A stretch of DNA of 40,259 nucleotides, from assembly GCA_007692645.1 (NCBI GenBank), contig REBR01000146.1, positions 1 through 40,259 on the forward strand, read 5' to 3'. Numbering within the stretch: the stretch's first letter is position 1; every line of letters starts with the position of its first letter. Shown here piece by piece: positions 8,069-16,689 of the stretch. Origin of the DNA: Halomonadaceae bacterium (GTDB taxonomy: Bacteria > Pseudomonadota > Gammaproteobacteria > Pseudomonadales > Oleiphilaceae). The notes under the pieces are model-generated. The model did not search any database, had not been told where the DNA came from, and worked only from the letters and a program-made list of their open reading frames with translations. Position numbers and translations under genes: made by a program.

Positions 8069-8851
8069 ATGCTGGATATGGGAACCCTGTCGGTAGGGCA
8101 ATATAACTTTGTCGGCAACGCTTTTTCTTTCGGTCTCGCTGTGATGGCAGCAACGACCATCTTCCTCTGGCTGATGCGTAATGAGGTGGCCCCGGCTTAC
8201 CGTATGGCCATAACCATTACCGGCCTGGTTACTGCTGTAGCGGCTTACCACTACCTGCAAATCATGATGTCCTGGAATGCAGCGGTGGATATTTCCTCAG
8301 GGGCTGTGGTCAGTACTGGCGAACCGTTTAACCAGGCCTATCGCTATGTGGATTGGCTGCTGACGGTTCCGCTGCTGTTGGTTGAACTGATCCTGGTCAT
8401 GAAACTGACCCAGTCCGAAACCTGGCGCAAGTCACTGACCCTGGGTGGTGCTGCAGCACTGATGATCATCCTGGGCTACCCGGGTGAAGTGGCTGAATCT
8501 CTGGGCCCACGGTTCATCTTCTGGATCCTGTCCATGATCCCGTTCCTGTACATCCTCTACCAGCTGGTGATCGGTCTTAAAGACTCCATTTCCAAGCAGC
8601 CGGAAAATGTGCAGCAACTGATCAAAGTCGCCATCTATCTGGTGGTTGCCTCCTGGGCCTTCTACCCCATCGTTTACCTGTTCCCGGCCATTGGCCTGAC
8701 CGGTGGCGCTGCGGTCACTGCCGTGGAAGTGGGTTACACCGTGGCTGATATTGTTGCCAAGGCGGTCTTCGGCCTGTTGATCTTCATGATCGCAGTACGC
8801 AAGTCCGAGCACGAAACCGGCAAAGCCAGCACCGCCGCCAAGAAAAGCTAA
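8069..8851 (+). CDS. Microbial rhodopsin, predicted H+ pump, xanthorhodopsin-like
   Basis: RYVDWLLTVPLLLVE (D95/T99/E106, L103), AAYHYLQIM (H61), VGYTVADIVAKAVFG (Schiff-base K231), LGYPGE. AAGGAA RBS lies 8 nt before the ATG at 8069; the ORF track begins upstream at 7916. Confidence 0.96.
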   Translation: MLDMGTLSVGQYNFVGNAFSFGLAVMAATTIFLWLMRNEVAPAYRMAITITGLVTAVAAYHYLQIMMSWNAAVDISSGAVVSTGEPFNQAYRYVDWLLTVPLLLVELILVMKLTQSETWRKSLTLGGAAALMIILGYPGEVAESLGPRFIFWILSMIPFLYILYQLVIGLKDSISKQPENVQQLIKVAIYLVVASWAFYPIVYLFPAIGLTGGAAVTAVEVGYTVADIVAKAVFGLLIFMIAVRKSEHETGKASTAAKKS

Positions 8852-8900
8852 ACGGCGTTGATGTCCGGCGGTGGGGCCCTGTGCCCTGCCGCCGTTTCTT
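8850..8900 (+). other. Inverted repeat between rhodopsin and crtE, possible attenuator
   Basis: AAACGGCG (8850-8857) pairs with CGCCGTTT (8890-8897), with nested GGCGG/CCGCC, followed by tttctttc. Confidence 0.45.
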
Positions 8901-8915
8901 TCGCTGCTGGATGGA

Positions 8916-9992
8916 ATGGACATTATGGCTGCCGTACAAATAACAAACCGAACATCGGAAACTGCCAGCACCACCCCCCTATTTACCAACGCAGTGCGGC
9001 CTCAGCCGTTACTGCCGAGGGGTGACCGCAGACCGGACCCAGGTCCGGTTTCGGCGTCACCCCTGAGCCCAAAGCTGGCTCAGGAACTGGATCAGGTCAA
9101 AGACCTGATGATTCACAGCCTGGGTCAGGCCCATGAGTTACCGGCAACCCAGGCCAGCCGTTATCAGATCGATACCGGCGGCGGCTTGCTACGGGCCCGC
9201 CTGGCCCTGATCAGCGGTGATCACTTTGGCGCATCGGCGGATTATCGTATTGCCTCAGCCGCGGCCTGCGAGCTGATGCACAACGCCTCTCTGGTGCATG
9301 ATGACCTGTGTGATGGGGACATCCTGCGCCGGGGCAAGGCCACGGTGTGGCACCACTTTAACCGCCAGGTGGCCCTGTGCGCCGGGGATTTACTCATGTG
9401 TGCCGCTTTTATGGCCACTACCGAGGTGGCCAGCCCGCGCCACTCCCAGCAATTGAGTCGCTGCCTGGCCAGACATACCCGCACGGTAATCACCGGGCAA
9501 AGCCTGGAGGTGGCCCCAGAGCCGGCTACCCGGCCCAGCCTGGGGAGTTATCTCAAGGCAACCCGGGCCAAGACGGCACCGTTTATCCTGTTGCCCCTTG
9601 AAGCGGGGGCACTGGGTGGCGATGCCACACCGGGGCAACTCAGCGGTCTTACCCGAGCAGCGGATGCCATTGGTCTGGCCTATCAGGTGGTGGATGATCT
9701 GGATGATCTGGCTGAAGGCAACGGGGAGTTCCACCCCTACCACGCCTGGCTTCATCACCAGCCACCGGCAGACTCGTCAGCATCCGGGTCCCTGGTATCT
9801 GATCACCTGCAATCTGCCACCCTGCACCGGGCAACCCGCCATGCCCTGGCGGCGCTGGGCCGTGCACAGCAACAATTGACAGCACTGTCACCGCTGCTCT
9901 ACCAGGCACTGAAACCCACTATTCAGGGTCTGCAGCAACGGGCCAACCACCATTTGGAGGCACTGCCCTATGTCCTCAGCATCCGCTTCTGA
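8916..9992 (+). CDS. crtE: Geranylgeranyl diphosphate synthase (polyprenyl synthetase)
   Basis: First Asp-rich motif LVHDDLCDGDILRRGKATVWHHF, second VVDDLDD; first gene of the crtEIBY-blh run. Confidence 0.9.
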   Translation: MDIMAAVQITNRTSETASTTPLFTNAVRPQPLLPRGDRRPDPGPVSASPLSPKLAQELDQVKDLMIHSLGQAHELPATQASRYQIDTGGGLLRARLALISGDHFGASADYRIASAAACELMHNASLVHDDLCDGDILRRGKATVWHHFNRQVALCAGDLLMCAAFMATTEVASPRHSQQLSRCLARHTRTVITGQSLEVAPEPATRPSLGSYLKATRAKTAPFILLPLEAGALGGDATPGQLSGLTRAADAIGLAYQVVDDLDDLAEGNGEFHPYHAWLHHQPPADSSASGSLVSDHLQSATLHRATRHALAALGRAQQQLTALSPLLYQALKPTIQGLQQRANHHLEALPYVLSIRF

Positions 9993-11529
9993 CCCCAGCT
10001 CACTCCCCTCCTCAGTGGCCGCCCTGGTGGTGGGGGCAGGGTTTGGCGGGTTGGCCGTGGCACTTCGCCTGCTGGCCCGGGGCCATCAGGTGGATTTACT
10101 GGAAAAGCACCCGGATCTGGGGGGGCGCGCCCGTACCCTGACCCTGGATGGGGTTTCATTTGATGCCGGTCCCACTGTGATTACCGCCCCTTTTCTGTTT
10201 GCAGAGCTGTTTGCCGCTTTCGGTGAAACCCTGTCTGACCATGTGACACTGTTACCCGTAGACCCCTTTTACCGTATGGAATTTGCCGACGGCAGCCACT
10301 TTGATTACCGGGCTACCCTGGAGGGAACACTGGAGGAAGTGGAGCGCCTGTCCCCCGGCGCCAGTGCTGGGTATCACGCATTCCTGGCGGCTTCACAGGC
10401 CATGTATCAGCGGGGATTTGTGGAGCTGGGCCGGAAACCCTTTACCCGCATCAGGGATATGCTGGAAGTGATTCCTGACCTGGTGCGGCTGCGGGCCGAT
10501 CGCAGCATTTATCAGTTTGTCTCCAGTTTTTTTGCGGATGAGCGCCTGCGCCGTGCGTTCTCGGTACCGTCTCTGCTGGTGGGGGGCAACCCGTTTCGTA
10601 CCTCTTCCCTGTATGCCCTGATCCACGCCCTGGAGCGCAAGGACGGGGTCTGGTATGTGCAAGGTGGCACCGGGGCCCTGATCAAGGCCATGGCAGAACT
10701 GTTTGTGCGCCATGGCGGCCGGCTGCACTGCAATCAATCTGTCGCCCGGCTGGCCATGAAAGGCCACCAGGTGGTGGGGGCCCACTGTGAGTCCGGGGAT
10801 TATTTCCCCGCGGATCTGGTGGTGAGCAACGCCGACCCCCTCTATGTTTACCAGCAATGGATAGAACGCAGCCTGGCGGAGAAAGCCGCTGACCTGCACC
10901 GGGAACGGTTAAAGCAGTCCATGGGGCTGTTTGTACTGTACTTCACCACCGAGCGCAGTTACCCGGAACTGGAGCACCACACCATTATTTTCGGTGAGAC
11001 TTTCCGGGAAATCCTCACCCAGATCTTCGATCACCATCAGGTGCCCGACGACCTGAGCCTTTACCTGCACCGCCCCGGCGCCACTGACCCTGCCATGGCA
11101 GCACCAGGCCGTGATGCCTTCTATGTGCTGGCCCCGGTTCCCAACCTGCAGGGCAACCAGGACTGGGAGACCCTGGCGCCGGTGCTGCAGGAGCAGGTAA
11201 TCAGCACCCTGGAGCAACGGGTAATGCCGGACCTGCGGCAGCAGTTACGAGCCACCCACTGCCTGTCACCGGTGTACTTTCATGAGCAACTCAACAGCCC
11301 CTTTGGCAGTGGCTTCTCCATTGCCCCGGTACTGACCCAGTCCGCCGGGCTGCGCTTTCACAACCGCTCACCCCGTTACCCCAATCTGTACTTTGTGGGG
11401 GCCGGCACTCACCCCGGTGCCGGTGTGCCCGGGGTCGTCTCTTCTGCAGCGGTGGTTGAACACCTGGTGGCAGAAGACTTCCCTGGCCCGGCCATTGTGC
11501 CGCTACCAGCAGAGGCCAGGTTGCCATGA
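9970..11529 (+). CDS. crtI: Phytoene desaturase
   Basis: VVGAGFGGLAVALRLLARGHQVDLLEKHPDLGGRA dinucleotide-binding motif; GAGTHPGAGVPGVVSSA C-terminal motif. Confidence 0.95.
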   Translation: MSSASASDPSSLPSSVAALVVGAGFGGLAVALRLLARGHQVDLLEKHPDLGGRARTLTLDGVSFDAGPTVITAPFLFAELFAAFGETLSDHVTLLPVDPFYRMEFADGSHFDYRATLEGTLEEVERLSPGASAGYHAFLAASQAMYQRGFVELGRKPFTRIRDMLEVIPDLVRLRADRSIYQFVSSFFADERLRRAFSVPSLLVGGNPFRTSSLYALIHALERKDGVWYVQGGTGALIKAMAELFVRHGGRLHCNQSVARLAMKGHQVVGAHCESGDYFPADLVVSNADPLYVYQQWIERSLAEKAADLHRERLKQSMGLFVLYFTTERSYPELEHHTIIFGETFREILTQIFDHHQVPDDLSLYLHRPGATDPAMAAPGRDAFYVLAPVPNLQGNQDWETLAPVLQEQVISTLEQRVMPDLRQQLRATHCLSPVYFHEQLNSPFGSGFSIAPVLTQSAGLRFHNRSPRYPNLYFVGAGTHPGAGVPGVVSSAAVVEHLVAEDFPGPAIVPLPAEARLP

Positions 11530-12527
11530 CCGCCGCTCAGTCTGACACCCGTTCTGAGCACCGGTCAGAGGCCCAAATGCCCACACTGGCACAGGCTCAG
11601 TCCCAGCTGCGCCGCCATGGCCGCAGTTTTTACTGGGCCGGGCATTTTCTGCCCCGTCACAGCCGGTATCAGGCCACCCGCCTGTACAACTTGTGCCGGC
11701 AGATAGATGATCTGGCGGATAATGCCAGCACACCCCAGGAACAAACCCGTGCAGGCAAGCAGTTGCTGGCCCTGCAACAGGCCATCATCCACTCCGCCCC
11801 CGCCCAGTCCCCCCTGGCTGCCCAGGCGCTGGATCTGTGTCAACACCAACCGTTATTCCGCCAGGCACTGATCGATCTGCTGGCCGCCGTTCAAGGGGAC
11901 TTGCAACCGGTTCAGATGGACCACTGGCCAGGGCTGCTGGGCTATTGCTATGGAGTTGCCGGTACCGTGGGGGTCATGATGGCGCAACTCCTGGAGGTAG
12001 AACAGCAGCCATTGGCACTGCCCCATGCCATTGATTTGGGTATCGCCATGCAACTGACCAACATGGCCCGTGATGTACTGGAAGATGCTCATATGGGTCG
12101 GGTTTACCTGCCTGCCGATGGTGCCGCTGGCAGGCTCTCGGCCCATGCTCTGGCCAGGGGCGATACCCAGAGCCGTAGGCAGGCCTGGCAAGGGGTACTG
12201 GAGTTGCTGGAGCGGGCTGACCATTACTACCGCAGCGGCTGGCAGGGGCTGGGGTTTATTCCGGCCCGGCCCCGGCTGGCCATCGCTATTGCTGCCCGGG
12301 TGTACCAGGATATCGGCCCGGTGATACGCCGCCAGGGCCCTACCGGCTACTGGCAGGGACGGGCCCGGGTGAGTGGCCCACGCAAACTGCTGTTAACCCT
12401 GGCCAGCCTATGGCAAGTTCCTGACCACACGGGTTATGTGCAACATGACGGGCAACTGCATCAGGACTTTATCAGCTGCCTGAACCCTCGCCCCGAGCCC
12501 TGGTATCCAGAGGATGTGCACCCGTGA
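11526..12527 (+). CDS. crtB: Phytoene/squalene synthase family protein (phytoene synthase)
   Basis: SFYWAGHFLPR, LYNLCRQIDDLADN, GVAGTVGVMMAQLL, AMQLTNMARDVLEDAHMGRVYLP. Confidence 0.94.
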   Translation: MTAAQSDTRSEHRSEAQMPTLAQAQSQLRRHGRSFYWAGHFLPRHSRYQATRLYNLCRQIDDLADNASTPQEQTRAGKQLLALQQAIIHSAPAQSPLAAQALDLCQHQPLFRQALIDLLAAVQGDLQPVQMDHWPGLLGYCYGVAGTVGVMMAQLLEVEQQPLALPHAIDLGIAMQLTNMARDVLEDAHMGRVYLPADGAAGRLSAHALARGDTQSRRQAWQGVLELLERADHYYRSGWQGLGFIPARPRLAIAIAARVYQDIGPVIRRQGPTGYWQGRARVSGPRKLLLTLASLWQVPDHTGYVQHDGQLHQDFISCLNPRPEPWYPEDVHP

Positions 12528-13735
12528 AGCAGCCGGCCCCAGACTATGATTTGGTCATTGCCGGTGCTGGGCTGACCGGGCTCAGCCTCGCCTGCTGGCT
12601 ACTGGACCTGGCTACCCAGCGCCGCCAGCCCCTGCCGCGAATACTGATGCTGGAACCCCGCAGCCACTACAGCAACGACCGCACCTGGTGTTTCTGGGAC
12701 CGTCAGCCGCAGCCGTTTCGCCACTGTATCCGTCAGCGCTGGCCCCGCTGGGCGGTGCAGCAGGGGCAGCAGCGCCAGCAACAGCAGGGGGATCATGCCC
12801 CTTATGCCATGCTGCCTGCCGAGGATCTTTACCGGGAAGCCCTGGCACGCATTAACCGGGAACCGGCCATTACCCTCAAGCAGGGAGTGACTGTGCAGCA
12901 GTTGCTGGAACAGCCGCAACAGGTTCAGGTGGTGACCAGTGATGGGCACTTCAGTAGCCATGCGGTTATCGACACCCGCCCACCGGCCCGTGAGGCAATG
13001 GCTGAAGAACAGGGGTTATGGCAGGTCTTTACCGGGCTGGAGCTGGCCTTGCCAGACCATGGATTTGAGGCGGACTGTGCCCTGCTGATGGATTTCCAAC
13101 CGGGTGTGGGGGATACCCGGTTTGTCTATGTTCTGCCCCTGGGACCAGACCATCTGCTGGTGGAATGGACCGCCTTTCAACCCCACCTAAGTGCCCCTGC
13201 CCTAAGTGCCGACTTTGATCACTGGCTGAACATCCACCTGGGAACAGGTTACCGTGTTCTACGCCAGGAACAGGGCGCCTTGCCCATGATGCCCCTGCGC
13301 CCCCGCTCAGCTACTGCACCGGTCTCACGGCGTATTGTTACCGCCGGCACTGCGGCCGGCTGGCTGCGCCCTGCCACCGGCTACCTGTTTGCCACTTGCC
13401 AGCGGGGTGCCAGGGCTTTGGCGGAACAGGTGCTGGACGCTCACCGCAGCGGGGTTTGGGAGTTGCCGGGCTGGCAGCCCCGCAGTGCCCTGCTGAACTG
13501 GATGGACCGGGTCTTTCTGCGCGCCTTGCAGCGTCACCCGGAGCAGGCACCGCAATGGTTTCTGAGGCTCTTCGGCGGCACATCACCGGAGCGCCTGAGC
13601 CGCTTTCTCAGTGATCAACCAGGCCTGCTGGATATCCTCGCCATTATGACTGCGCTACCCCCCTGGCCCTTCCTGCAGTCGGCCCTGTCACGCCCCCACC
13701 CCAGACTGCCCGCCACCGGGAGCCCGAAACCATGA
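12524..13735 (+). CDS. crtY: Lycopene beta-cyclase
   Basis: DLVIAGAGLTGLSLA, NDRTWCFW; GTG start overlapping the crtB stop (GTGA). Confidence 0.92.
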   Translation: MKQPAPDYDLVIAGAGLTGLSLACWLLDLATQRRQPLPRILMLEPRSHYSNDRTWCFWDRQPQPFRHCIRQRWPRWAVQQGQQRQQQQGDHAPYAMLPAEDLYREALARINREPAITLKQGVTVQQLLEQPQQVQVVTSDGHFSSHAVIDTRPPAREAMAEEQGLWQVFTGLELALPDHGFEADCALLMDFQPGVGDTRFVYVLPLGPDHLLVEWTAFQPHLSAPALSADFDHWLNIHLGTGYRVLRQEQGALPMMPLRPRSATAPVSRRIVTAGTAAGWLRPATGYLFATCQRGARALAEQVLDAHRSGVWELPGWQPRSALLNWMDRVFLRALQRHPEQAPQWFLRLFGGTSPERLSRFLSDQPGLLDILAIMTALPPWPFLQSALSRPHPRLPATGSPKP

Positions 13736-14673
13736 ATCCCGCAGGGCACCAGACCCTGGTCATTGCCTTCGCGGTGGCTGCCACGGTCGTGGCCCTGCTG
13801 CTTCCAGAGCTGTCTATTGCCACTCAGTTCTGGGTCATTCTGGTACCCGTGGCGCTGTTTGGCTTATCCCATGGCGGTGCAGATCCGCTGATTCTGAAAA
13901 CCCTGACCCGGGTGCAGAAAGGGCCCCGACTATGGCTGGCCATGGGCCTATACAGTGGCCTGGCGGTGGCATTTATCCTCTTGATCTGGTGGTCACCGGT
14001 GCTGGCCCTGGGCTGCTTTCTACTGCTGTCCCTGTGGCATTTTGGCCGTACCGATGTGACGGCATTTAGCGGTGAAGAACAGGCCGGACCGGCACCGGCC
14101 CAATGGGGGCGAGTCTGGCTGGCGGGAGGGCTGCCCATTATCGGTCCGGTAACGGGGCACCCACAACAAACCGGTGAGCTGTTTGCCTGGCTACTGGGGA
14201 TGGAACCCGTGCCGGTGATTGCTTTCACCCTGACCTTGGGGCCCTGGCTGGCGGGCTTGTGGTTAGTGGGGTTTGTCGGGTTGCTGGCAGGTTACCGCCG
14301 AAGGCTGGGCTGGCCGGTGTATCTGGAGTTGCTCAGCCTGGCTGCGGCCATGGTGCTATTGCCGCCATTGCTGGCATTTACCTTCTATTTCTGTGGTGTA
14401 CACAGTGTGCGGCACTTTATGGCGGTGGCCAGACATACACCCCGGGAAGACCATGCCGGCACCCTGGGGTTTCTGGCCCGGCAGGCGGCCCCGGCTACTT
14501 TGGCCGCCATCATCATGGCAGCCATGGCCTGGGGATTGATCGTGACCCTGGCGCCGGCAACCGACCTGATGGTGGAGGCGGTACGCATTCTGTTCTGGGG
14601 CCTGGCTGCCCTGACTGTGCCCCATGTGCTGGCGGTGGAGTGGTGGTGGTCCAGGGGAACTACAAAAGCCTGA
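13732..14673 (+). CDS. blh: Brp/Blh family beta-carotene 15,15'-dioxygenase
   Basis: Multi-TM protein with His-bearing motifs FGLSHGGADP, LLSLWHFGRTD, CGVHSVRHFMA, VPHVLAVEWW; ATGA overlap with crtY. Confidence 0.93.
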   Translation: MNPAGHQTLVIAFAVAATVVALLLPELSIATQFWVILVPVALFGLSHGGADPLILKTLTRVQKGPRLWLAMGLYSGLAVAFILLIWWSPVLALGCFLLLSLWHFGRTDVTAFSGEEQAGPAPAQWGRVWLAGGLPIIGPVTGHPQQTGELFAWLLGMEPVPVIAFTLTLGPWLAGLWLVGFVGLLAGYRRRLGWPVYLELLSLAAAMVLLPPLLAFTFYFCGVHSVRHFMAVARHTPREDHAGTLGFLARQAAPATLAAIIMAAMAWGLIVTLAPATDLMVEAVRILFWGLAALTVPHVLAVEWWWSRGTTKA

Positions 14674-15354: not shown

Positions 15355-16689
15355 TCAATAAAGCGGGTCACCCGGGGCCACTGGCCAGTCTGCCGCATCC
15401 ACCGTATGCAGGCCCACGGGCTGGGCGGCATTGCCCTGCCATCGCTCCACAAAATCCCCCCGGGGGTCATAGGTTTTTCCCTGTTTTTCCAGATTGAACT
15501 GGCGCAGCCCCCGGGGGTCGGCACCCACCCCTGCCAGGTATTGCCAGTTGCCATAGTTACTGGCCGGGTCGTAATCCACCAGTTGCTCTTCAAACCAGGC
15601 AGCGCCGTAGCGCCAGTCCAGCCCCAGTTCATGGACAAAACAGCTGGCCACCAGTTGCCGGCCACGGTTCGACATATAGCCGGTTTCCCGCAACTGGTTC
15701 ATGCAGGCATTCACAATCGGGTACTGGGTTGTGCCCTCGCACCAGGCCCGGAAACGGTGGGGGTAGAAAGACACGGCCCGGGCACGGTTACTGACACCGT
15801 CACGGCTGAACAGCCGGTCACCCAGGAACTGGCCGTTCCAGTGAAAGAATTCCCGCCACAACAGTTCAAAGTAGAGCCAGTAGGTGGAGTCGTTTCGCTG
15901 CACTTGCCGTTCGTAATCAGCAATCCGTGCTGCGGCCCTGCGCACCGACAGACTGCCGTTGGCCAGCCAGGGGGAGAAACGGCTGGAGGCTGACCAGTCA
16001 TCCAGTGCGTTACGGGTCTCTTTATAGGTGGCGATACCCTGGGTGGTAAACAGGAAATCTTCCAGTTGGGCCAGTGCTGCCTGTTCACCCCCCTGGTGCG
16101 GATCATTTTCCACCATGACCGGCTGCGGACAGCGCCCACGGTCATCCTCTGGCAGGCCTGGGGCCGGTGGCAGGGAACGGGGAGGGTCCACCGGTGGCCG
16201 TGGTGGCAGTAACGGCCGCTCCACTTTTTTACGGAACTGGGAAAAAGTCTCAGGCATGTCTTCCAGGGCAAAAGGCAGGTCCAGCTCCCGAAACAGGCCC
16301 TGGGTTTCCACCTGGGCCGCCTGCACCTTGGGCAGTGCCGCCACGATCTGCTGCCACTGGGCAGCCTCATCACTGCCCACCAGCCGGCTGCGCATCAGTA
16401 CCGACACGCCGTGGCGCTGGCACAGGGCCGGGATCACCTCTACCGGGTTGCCCCAGGCAATATGCAGCCGTTGCCCCAGGGTTTTGAGCTCAGCTTCCAG
16501 AGCCATCAGGCTCTGCCACAGGAAGCGCCAGCGGTGCTCCCCCATTGGCCGGCTTTGGAAGCGCCCGGGGCGGAACCAGTCCGGGTCCACCACATAGGTG
16601 CACAGCAGCATGTCACTGTCTGCCGCCAGTTTCAGGGCCGGGTTATCGTGTACCCGCAAGTCGCGAGTGAACCAGAGCAGGGAGGGCAT
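15355..16689 (-). CDS. Cryptochrome-DASH / deoxyribodipyrimidine photolyase family
   Basis: LLWFTRDLRVHDNPAL; WCEGTTQYPIVNACMNQLRETGYMSNRGRQLVASCFVHELGLDWRYGAAWFEEQLVDYDPASNYGNWQYLAGVGADPRG is DASH-type. Confidence 0.93.
   Translation of the reverse strand: MPSLLWFTRDLRVHDNPALKLAADSDMLLCTYVVDPDWFRPGRFQSRPMGEHRWRFLWQSLMALEAELKTLGQRLHIAWGNPVEVIPALCQRHGVSVLMRSRLVGSDEAAQWQQIVAALPKVQAAQVETQGLFRELDLPFALEDMPETFSQFRKKVERPLLPPRPPVDPPRSLPPAPGLPEDDRGRCPQPVMVENDPHQGGEQAALAQLEDFLFTTQGIATYKETRNALDDWSASSRFSPWLANGSLSVRRAAARIADYERQVQRNDSTYWLYFELLWREFFHWNGQFLGDRLFSRDGVSNRARAVSFYPHRFRAWCEGTTQYPIVNACMNQLRETGYMSNRGRQLVASCFVHELGLDWRYGAAWFEEQLVDYDPASNYGNWQYLAGVGADPRGLRQFNLEKQGKTYDPRGDFVERWQGNAAQPVGLHTVDAADWPVAPGDPLY

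Follow-up and report, generated by a model that had tools for sequence, protein, structure and literature searches.

The window analysed here is the whole 40,259-nucleotide stretch of contig REBR01000146.1 (assembly GCA_007692645.1), from a Halomonadaceae bacterium that GTDB places in the Oleiphilaceae. A rhodopsin gene lies on its forward strand at 8069..8851 (260 amino acids plus a stop codon by translation) and matches the Pfam family Bac_rhodopsin (E = 9e-42). A start at 8069 is plausible, as an AAGGA motif about 10 bases 5' of it fits a start there and the N-termini of related rhodopsins begin at the same place. Directly after the rhodopsin, on the same strand, come five genes that together make up the usual pathway leading to beta-carotene and on to retinal. 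These are crtE, geranylgeranyl diphosphate synthase (8916..9992, +; Pfam polyprenyl_synt, 1.5e-34; likely ATG at 8916 in a reading frame that opens at 8871), crtI, phytoene desaturase (9970..11529, +; TIGR02734, 554.8 bits against a cut-off of 238.1), crtB, phytoene synthase (11526..12527, +; Pfam SQS_PSY, 1.5e-59), crtY, lycopene cyclase (12524..13735, +; Pfam Lycopene_cycl, 5.3e-54) and blh, the beta-carotene 15,15'-dioxygenase of retinal synthesis (13732..14673, +; TIGR03753, 188.7 bits against a cut-off of 95.25; Pfam BCD, 5e-56). Between the rhodopsin and crtE, a GC-rich hairpin of 12 pairs (10 of them GC) followed by TTTCTTT (8866..8894, +) resembles a terminator, as a match to the consensus only, and may let rhodopsin transcripts exceed those of the pigment genes. 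A gene of the DNA photolyase/cryptochrome family lies shortly downstream of the cassette on the opposite strand (15355-16689, -).

The rhodopsin has the residues of a proton pump. A sequence-only reading of this DNA had listed a DTE motif (D95, T99 and E106), H61 and the Schiff-base lysine K231, and all were confirmed by translation and a check of their positions. The protein thus combines the Bac_rhodopsin family with a Schiff-base Lys, an Asp acceptor and a carboxylic donor, and we infer that it is an outward proton pump. L103 had been assigned to the colour-tuning position equivalent to GPR 105, and our alignment places Leu there as well. This Leu is common to all of the XR-type sequences, while Gln stands there in two members of the family with PR-type rhodopsins, and the protein is predicted to absorb green light through tuning by Leu. 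The closest solved structures were those of psXR (9wfa), Salinibacter xanthorhodopsin (XR; 3ddl), Kin4B8 (7ytb/8i2z) and Gloeobacter rhodopsin (GR; 6nwd), with E values of 1e-65 to 1e-71 in sequence searches and 45-50% identity to these antenna-type relatives. The query shares its fold family and its DTE proton pump with GR, XR and Kin4B8. It differs from them in the carotenoid slot, where they have Gly and conserved helix E/F residues and the query has Trp in poorly conserved surroundings.

According to PMC12308411, Gly at the fenestration is the main criterion by which a carotenoid site is judged. In the query this residue is W152 (codon 8522..8524, +). The sequence-only reading had equated W152 with GR Gly178, and had proposed alignment with GR, XR and Kin4B8 as a check. 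The alignment agreed with it, placing Trp, not Gly, opposite GR Gly178, XR Gly156 and Kin4B8 Gly153 without gaps (helix E with GR, zero gaps: LGPRFIFWILSMIPFLYILY / ITTRIIWGTVSTIPFAYILY); ungapped alignment of helix E to several solved structures spans 20 residues. The preceding residue, which the earlier reading missed, is also exchanged (GR W177 to F151), so that the pair Trp-Gly becomes Phe-Trp. GR T179 and T182, which aid keto-ring binding (PMC9151804), correspond to I153 and M156. Across 16 salinixanthin-pocket and helix E/F sites of XR, taken from papers plus neighbouring residues and hence not exactly the published 16, the query keeps four, compared with 8-10 in the antenna-type references. 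As conservation is low in the helix F part of the slot too, a Gly at position 152 might by itself be insufficient for carotenoid binding. In GR, the substitution G178W abolished canthaxanthin binding, raised stability and improved pumping, and Trp occupies this position in 24% of 150 GR homologs (Chuon et al. 2022, PMC9151804). This loss of binding supports the earlier proposal that a bulky Trp blocks the canonical antenna site. By analogy with GR, W152 should block that site in the query, and the antenna is presumably absent.

Rhodopsin matches were found in 12 of the 151 genomes of the family, two of them (L011 and L012) being of the more distant PR type. Scanning of named genomes yielded 29 rhodopsin loci. 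The nearer loci came from Marinobacter, an Oleiphilaceae MAG, Halomonas/Vreelandella/Halovibrio, Spiribacter, other Ectothiorhodospiraceae and Salinivibrio, and the more distant ones from Wenzhouxiangella, Luteimonas, Loktanella, Aquisalinus, Roseicyclus and Filomicrobium. No relatives were found among viral contigs, and a comparison within the genus was confined to this genome, its only representative. The 26 sequences that share the close clade with the query (Marinobacter, Halomonas, Spiribacter and Salinivibrio) all have Phe-Trp. The rhodopsins of Wenzhouxiangella, Luteimonas and the alphaproteobacterial Loktanella, Aquisalinus and Roseicyclus resemble the query in overall sequence (57-62% identity), in having the same or a similar cassette and in having Met at XR Thr160, but differ from it in keeping Trp-Gly at the fenestration. 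The Filomicrobium rhodopsin has Trp-Trp. This MAG gene (L036:84-821) and the rhodopsin at L059 each contain an in-frame stop, and are either pseudogenes or assembly errors.

Among the related loci the order rhodopsin-crtE-I-B-Y-blh recurs almost throughout, at the Phe-Trp loci and at most Trp-Gly loci. The sequence-only reading had taken the absence of a ketolase or hydroxylase from the operon as support for the lack of an antenna. This argument is weak, because Gly-keeping relatives are surrounded by the same cassette without either gene, so that such a cassette is hardly informative on the use of an antenna. As the cassette is shared by most Gly- and Trp-type loci, we rejected operon content as a sign of it.

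Carotenoid-modifying genes were sought genome-wide with CrtZ and CrtW probe sequences, of which CrtW was confirmed by an NCBIfam model and CrtZ was used without one. CrtZ had no match in the query's own genome (88% complete) or in any Phe-Trp genome, and matched in Aquisalinus alone, a Gly-type genome in which the matching stretch has one in-frame TAG. PF04116 likewise had no match in the query's genome at this completeness. Strong CrtW-family matches were confined to the Filomicrobium MAG, the one with the Trp-Trp rhodopsin and the in-frame stop; the query's genome, at 88% completeness, gave two weak matches below the cut-off. Fenestration residue and carotenoid-modifying genes showed no real correlation across genomes, as most Gly-type genomes also had neither CrtZ nor CrtW. 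One of the two weak CrtW matches is a protein of the fatty-acid-desaturase family whose nearest model is that of the beta-carotene hydroxylase CrtR (127 bits, far under the cut-off of 475). It is encoded on another contig of the query's genome, remote from the carotenoid cassette (G000 contig C274:7190-7972; L060; L045:1318-2229). Judged by this match, the putative CrtR-like protein might conceivably provide hydroxylated carotenoids in this organism. Weak CrtR-like matches also occurred in two family genomes (L061 and L062).

Alternatively, the rhodopsin could still bind a carotenoid, in a displaced pose or at another site; a hydroxylated xanthophyll from the CrtR-like enzyme would be a candidate. 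The presence of that enzyme in the genome speaks for this, as does the report that xanthophyll binding has requirements different from those of ketocarotenoids (PMC12308411). However, a bulkier residue at the Gly position prevents zeaxanthin binding in Kin4B8 (PMC12308411), as Trp prevents canthaxanthin binding in GR (PMC9151804), and the CrtR-like protein falls well short of the cut-off of its family and is encoded at a distance from the cassette. We consider such binding very unlikely, and its fuller form, a carotenoid antenna bound, despite the Trp, at a novel site or in a novel pose and supplied as a xanthophyll by the CrtR-like enzyme from elsewhere in the genome, slightly more unlikely again.

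A tree, also proposed in the earlier reading, was built by maximum likelihood without the two fenestration columns. Together, the 27 sequences with Phe-Trp (the query among them) formed one group (support 98/99) that needs a single change, and GR, psXR, XR, Kin4B8 and TR formed a separate one (100/100); the remaining sequences have a poorly settled backbone, the PR outgroup is attached by a long branch, and we claim no order for the deeper forks. The change from Trp-Gly to Phe-Trp most likely took place a single time, in the ancestor of a gammaproteobacterial rhodopsin clade associated with halophiles, and became fixed there. The tree overturns the view of the query as an antenna-less exception inside an antenna-binding group, since all of its close relatives have Phe-Trp and the antenna-type references belong to another clade. 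The preponderance of antenna binders among the structural relatives found by sequence search might suggest that W152 is peculiar to the lineage of this genome, but this is refuted by the tree and the residue table and runs counter to the known occurrence of Trp in subgroup II (PMC3646047); we give it hardly any credence.

Xanthorhodopsins divide into subgroups I and II, with Gly at position 156 in all of subgroup I and Trp in the majority of subgroup II, whose opsins sit in retinal-synthesis cassettes (Vollmers et al. 2013, PMC3646047). The Octadecabacter rhodopsins of subgroup II pump protons and leave salinixanthin unbound despite having Gly (Vollmers et al. 2013, PMC3646047). Spiribacter rhodopsins were filed under subgroup II as antenna-less (PMC3832224). 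For the Salinivibrio rhodopsin, several replacements in the pocket have been described, among them Gly156 to Trp and Thr160 to Met, along with the absence of a ketolase, a Leu that tunes it to green and a relationship with Marinobacter and Spiribacter (PMC4094778). The query falls outside the XR/GR group (subgroup I) and with Spiribacter and Salinivibrio, which the papers place in subgroup II; its own placement there is by way of these two, the tree having been built without Octadecabacter sequences. It has Trp at XR 156 in a poorly conserved keto-carotenoid slot, and its opsin lies within a conserved crtE-I-B-Y-blh retinal cassette. With the subgroup II rhodopsins of Spiribacter (PMC3832224) and Salinivibrio (PMC4094778) it shares this Trp, the green-type Leu, the DTE motif and the cassette with no ketolase. 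Identity to such members of the clade is about 66-79%, and the differences are only at the level of species. Thus, of the earlier assignment to a xanthorhodopsin-like group in which antenna binding is common, the xanthorhodopsin-like membership stands, but the common antenna binding does not, as the query falls in subgroup II, where Trp is in the majority and antenna loss has already been described (PMC3646047, PMC3832224, PMC4094778).

The reading we favour, at a probability of about 0.93, is a rhodopsin of XR subgroup II that would be tuned to green, pump protons outward with retinal alone and carry no antenna at the W152 slot. Light would isomerise retinal on K231, and, as suggested by the conserved DTE residues, the Schiff-base proton would be accepted by D95 and returned by E106. 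The products of the downstream crtE-I-B-Y-blh genes would make beta-carotene and then cleave it to retinal. W152 would occupy the helix E slot in which the carotenoid ring of antenna-bearing xanthorhodopsins lies beside retinal, and because it fills this slot no antenna is expected to bind there. A role as a sensor, or as a pump for an ion other than the proton, has nothing specific in its favour and a negligible chance of being correct given the DTE motif, the retinal-synthesis cassette, the lack of a transducer gene directly adjoining the rhodopsin and the much weaker matches to sodium and chloride pumps in sequence searches.

The rhodopsin of this halophile-type gammaproteobacterium is a further sequence of a known type, the antenna-less subgroup II xanthorhodopsin, and will not surprise a specialist; the closed antenna pocket is common to the whole clade and has been described in papers since 2013. 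One more species is added to this clade. The small added value lies in the single change from Trp-Gly to Phe-Trp, which apparently became fixed in bacteria of the Marinobacter, Halomonas and Spiribacter types. The Gly-bearing relatives (Wenzhouxiangella and Rhodobacterales) keep an open site, and are the ones of interest with respect to hydroxylated carotenoids.

Further observations concern the loci of the Phe-Trp genomes. Rhodopsin identity to the query was ~70-79% in all of them (loci L014-L031), and at the same loci GGPPS, CrtB, CrtY and Blh fell to ~30-54%. CrtI identity was 65-76% in Marinobacter, Halomonas and Salinivibrio, and ~50% in Spiribacter. In Salinivibrio socompensis S35 (L031) the rhodopsin frame ends early, without the retinal lysine, as reported for the strain in PMC4094778. 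One family genome (G134) has two Phe-Trp rhodopsin copies (L008 and L013), with crt genes beside each.
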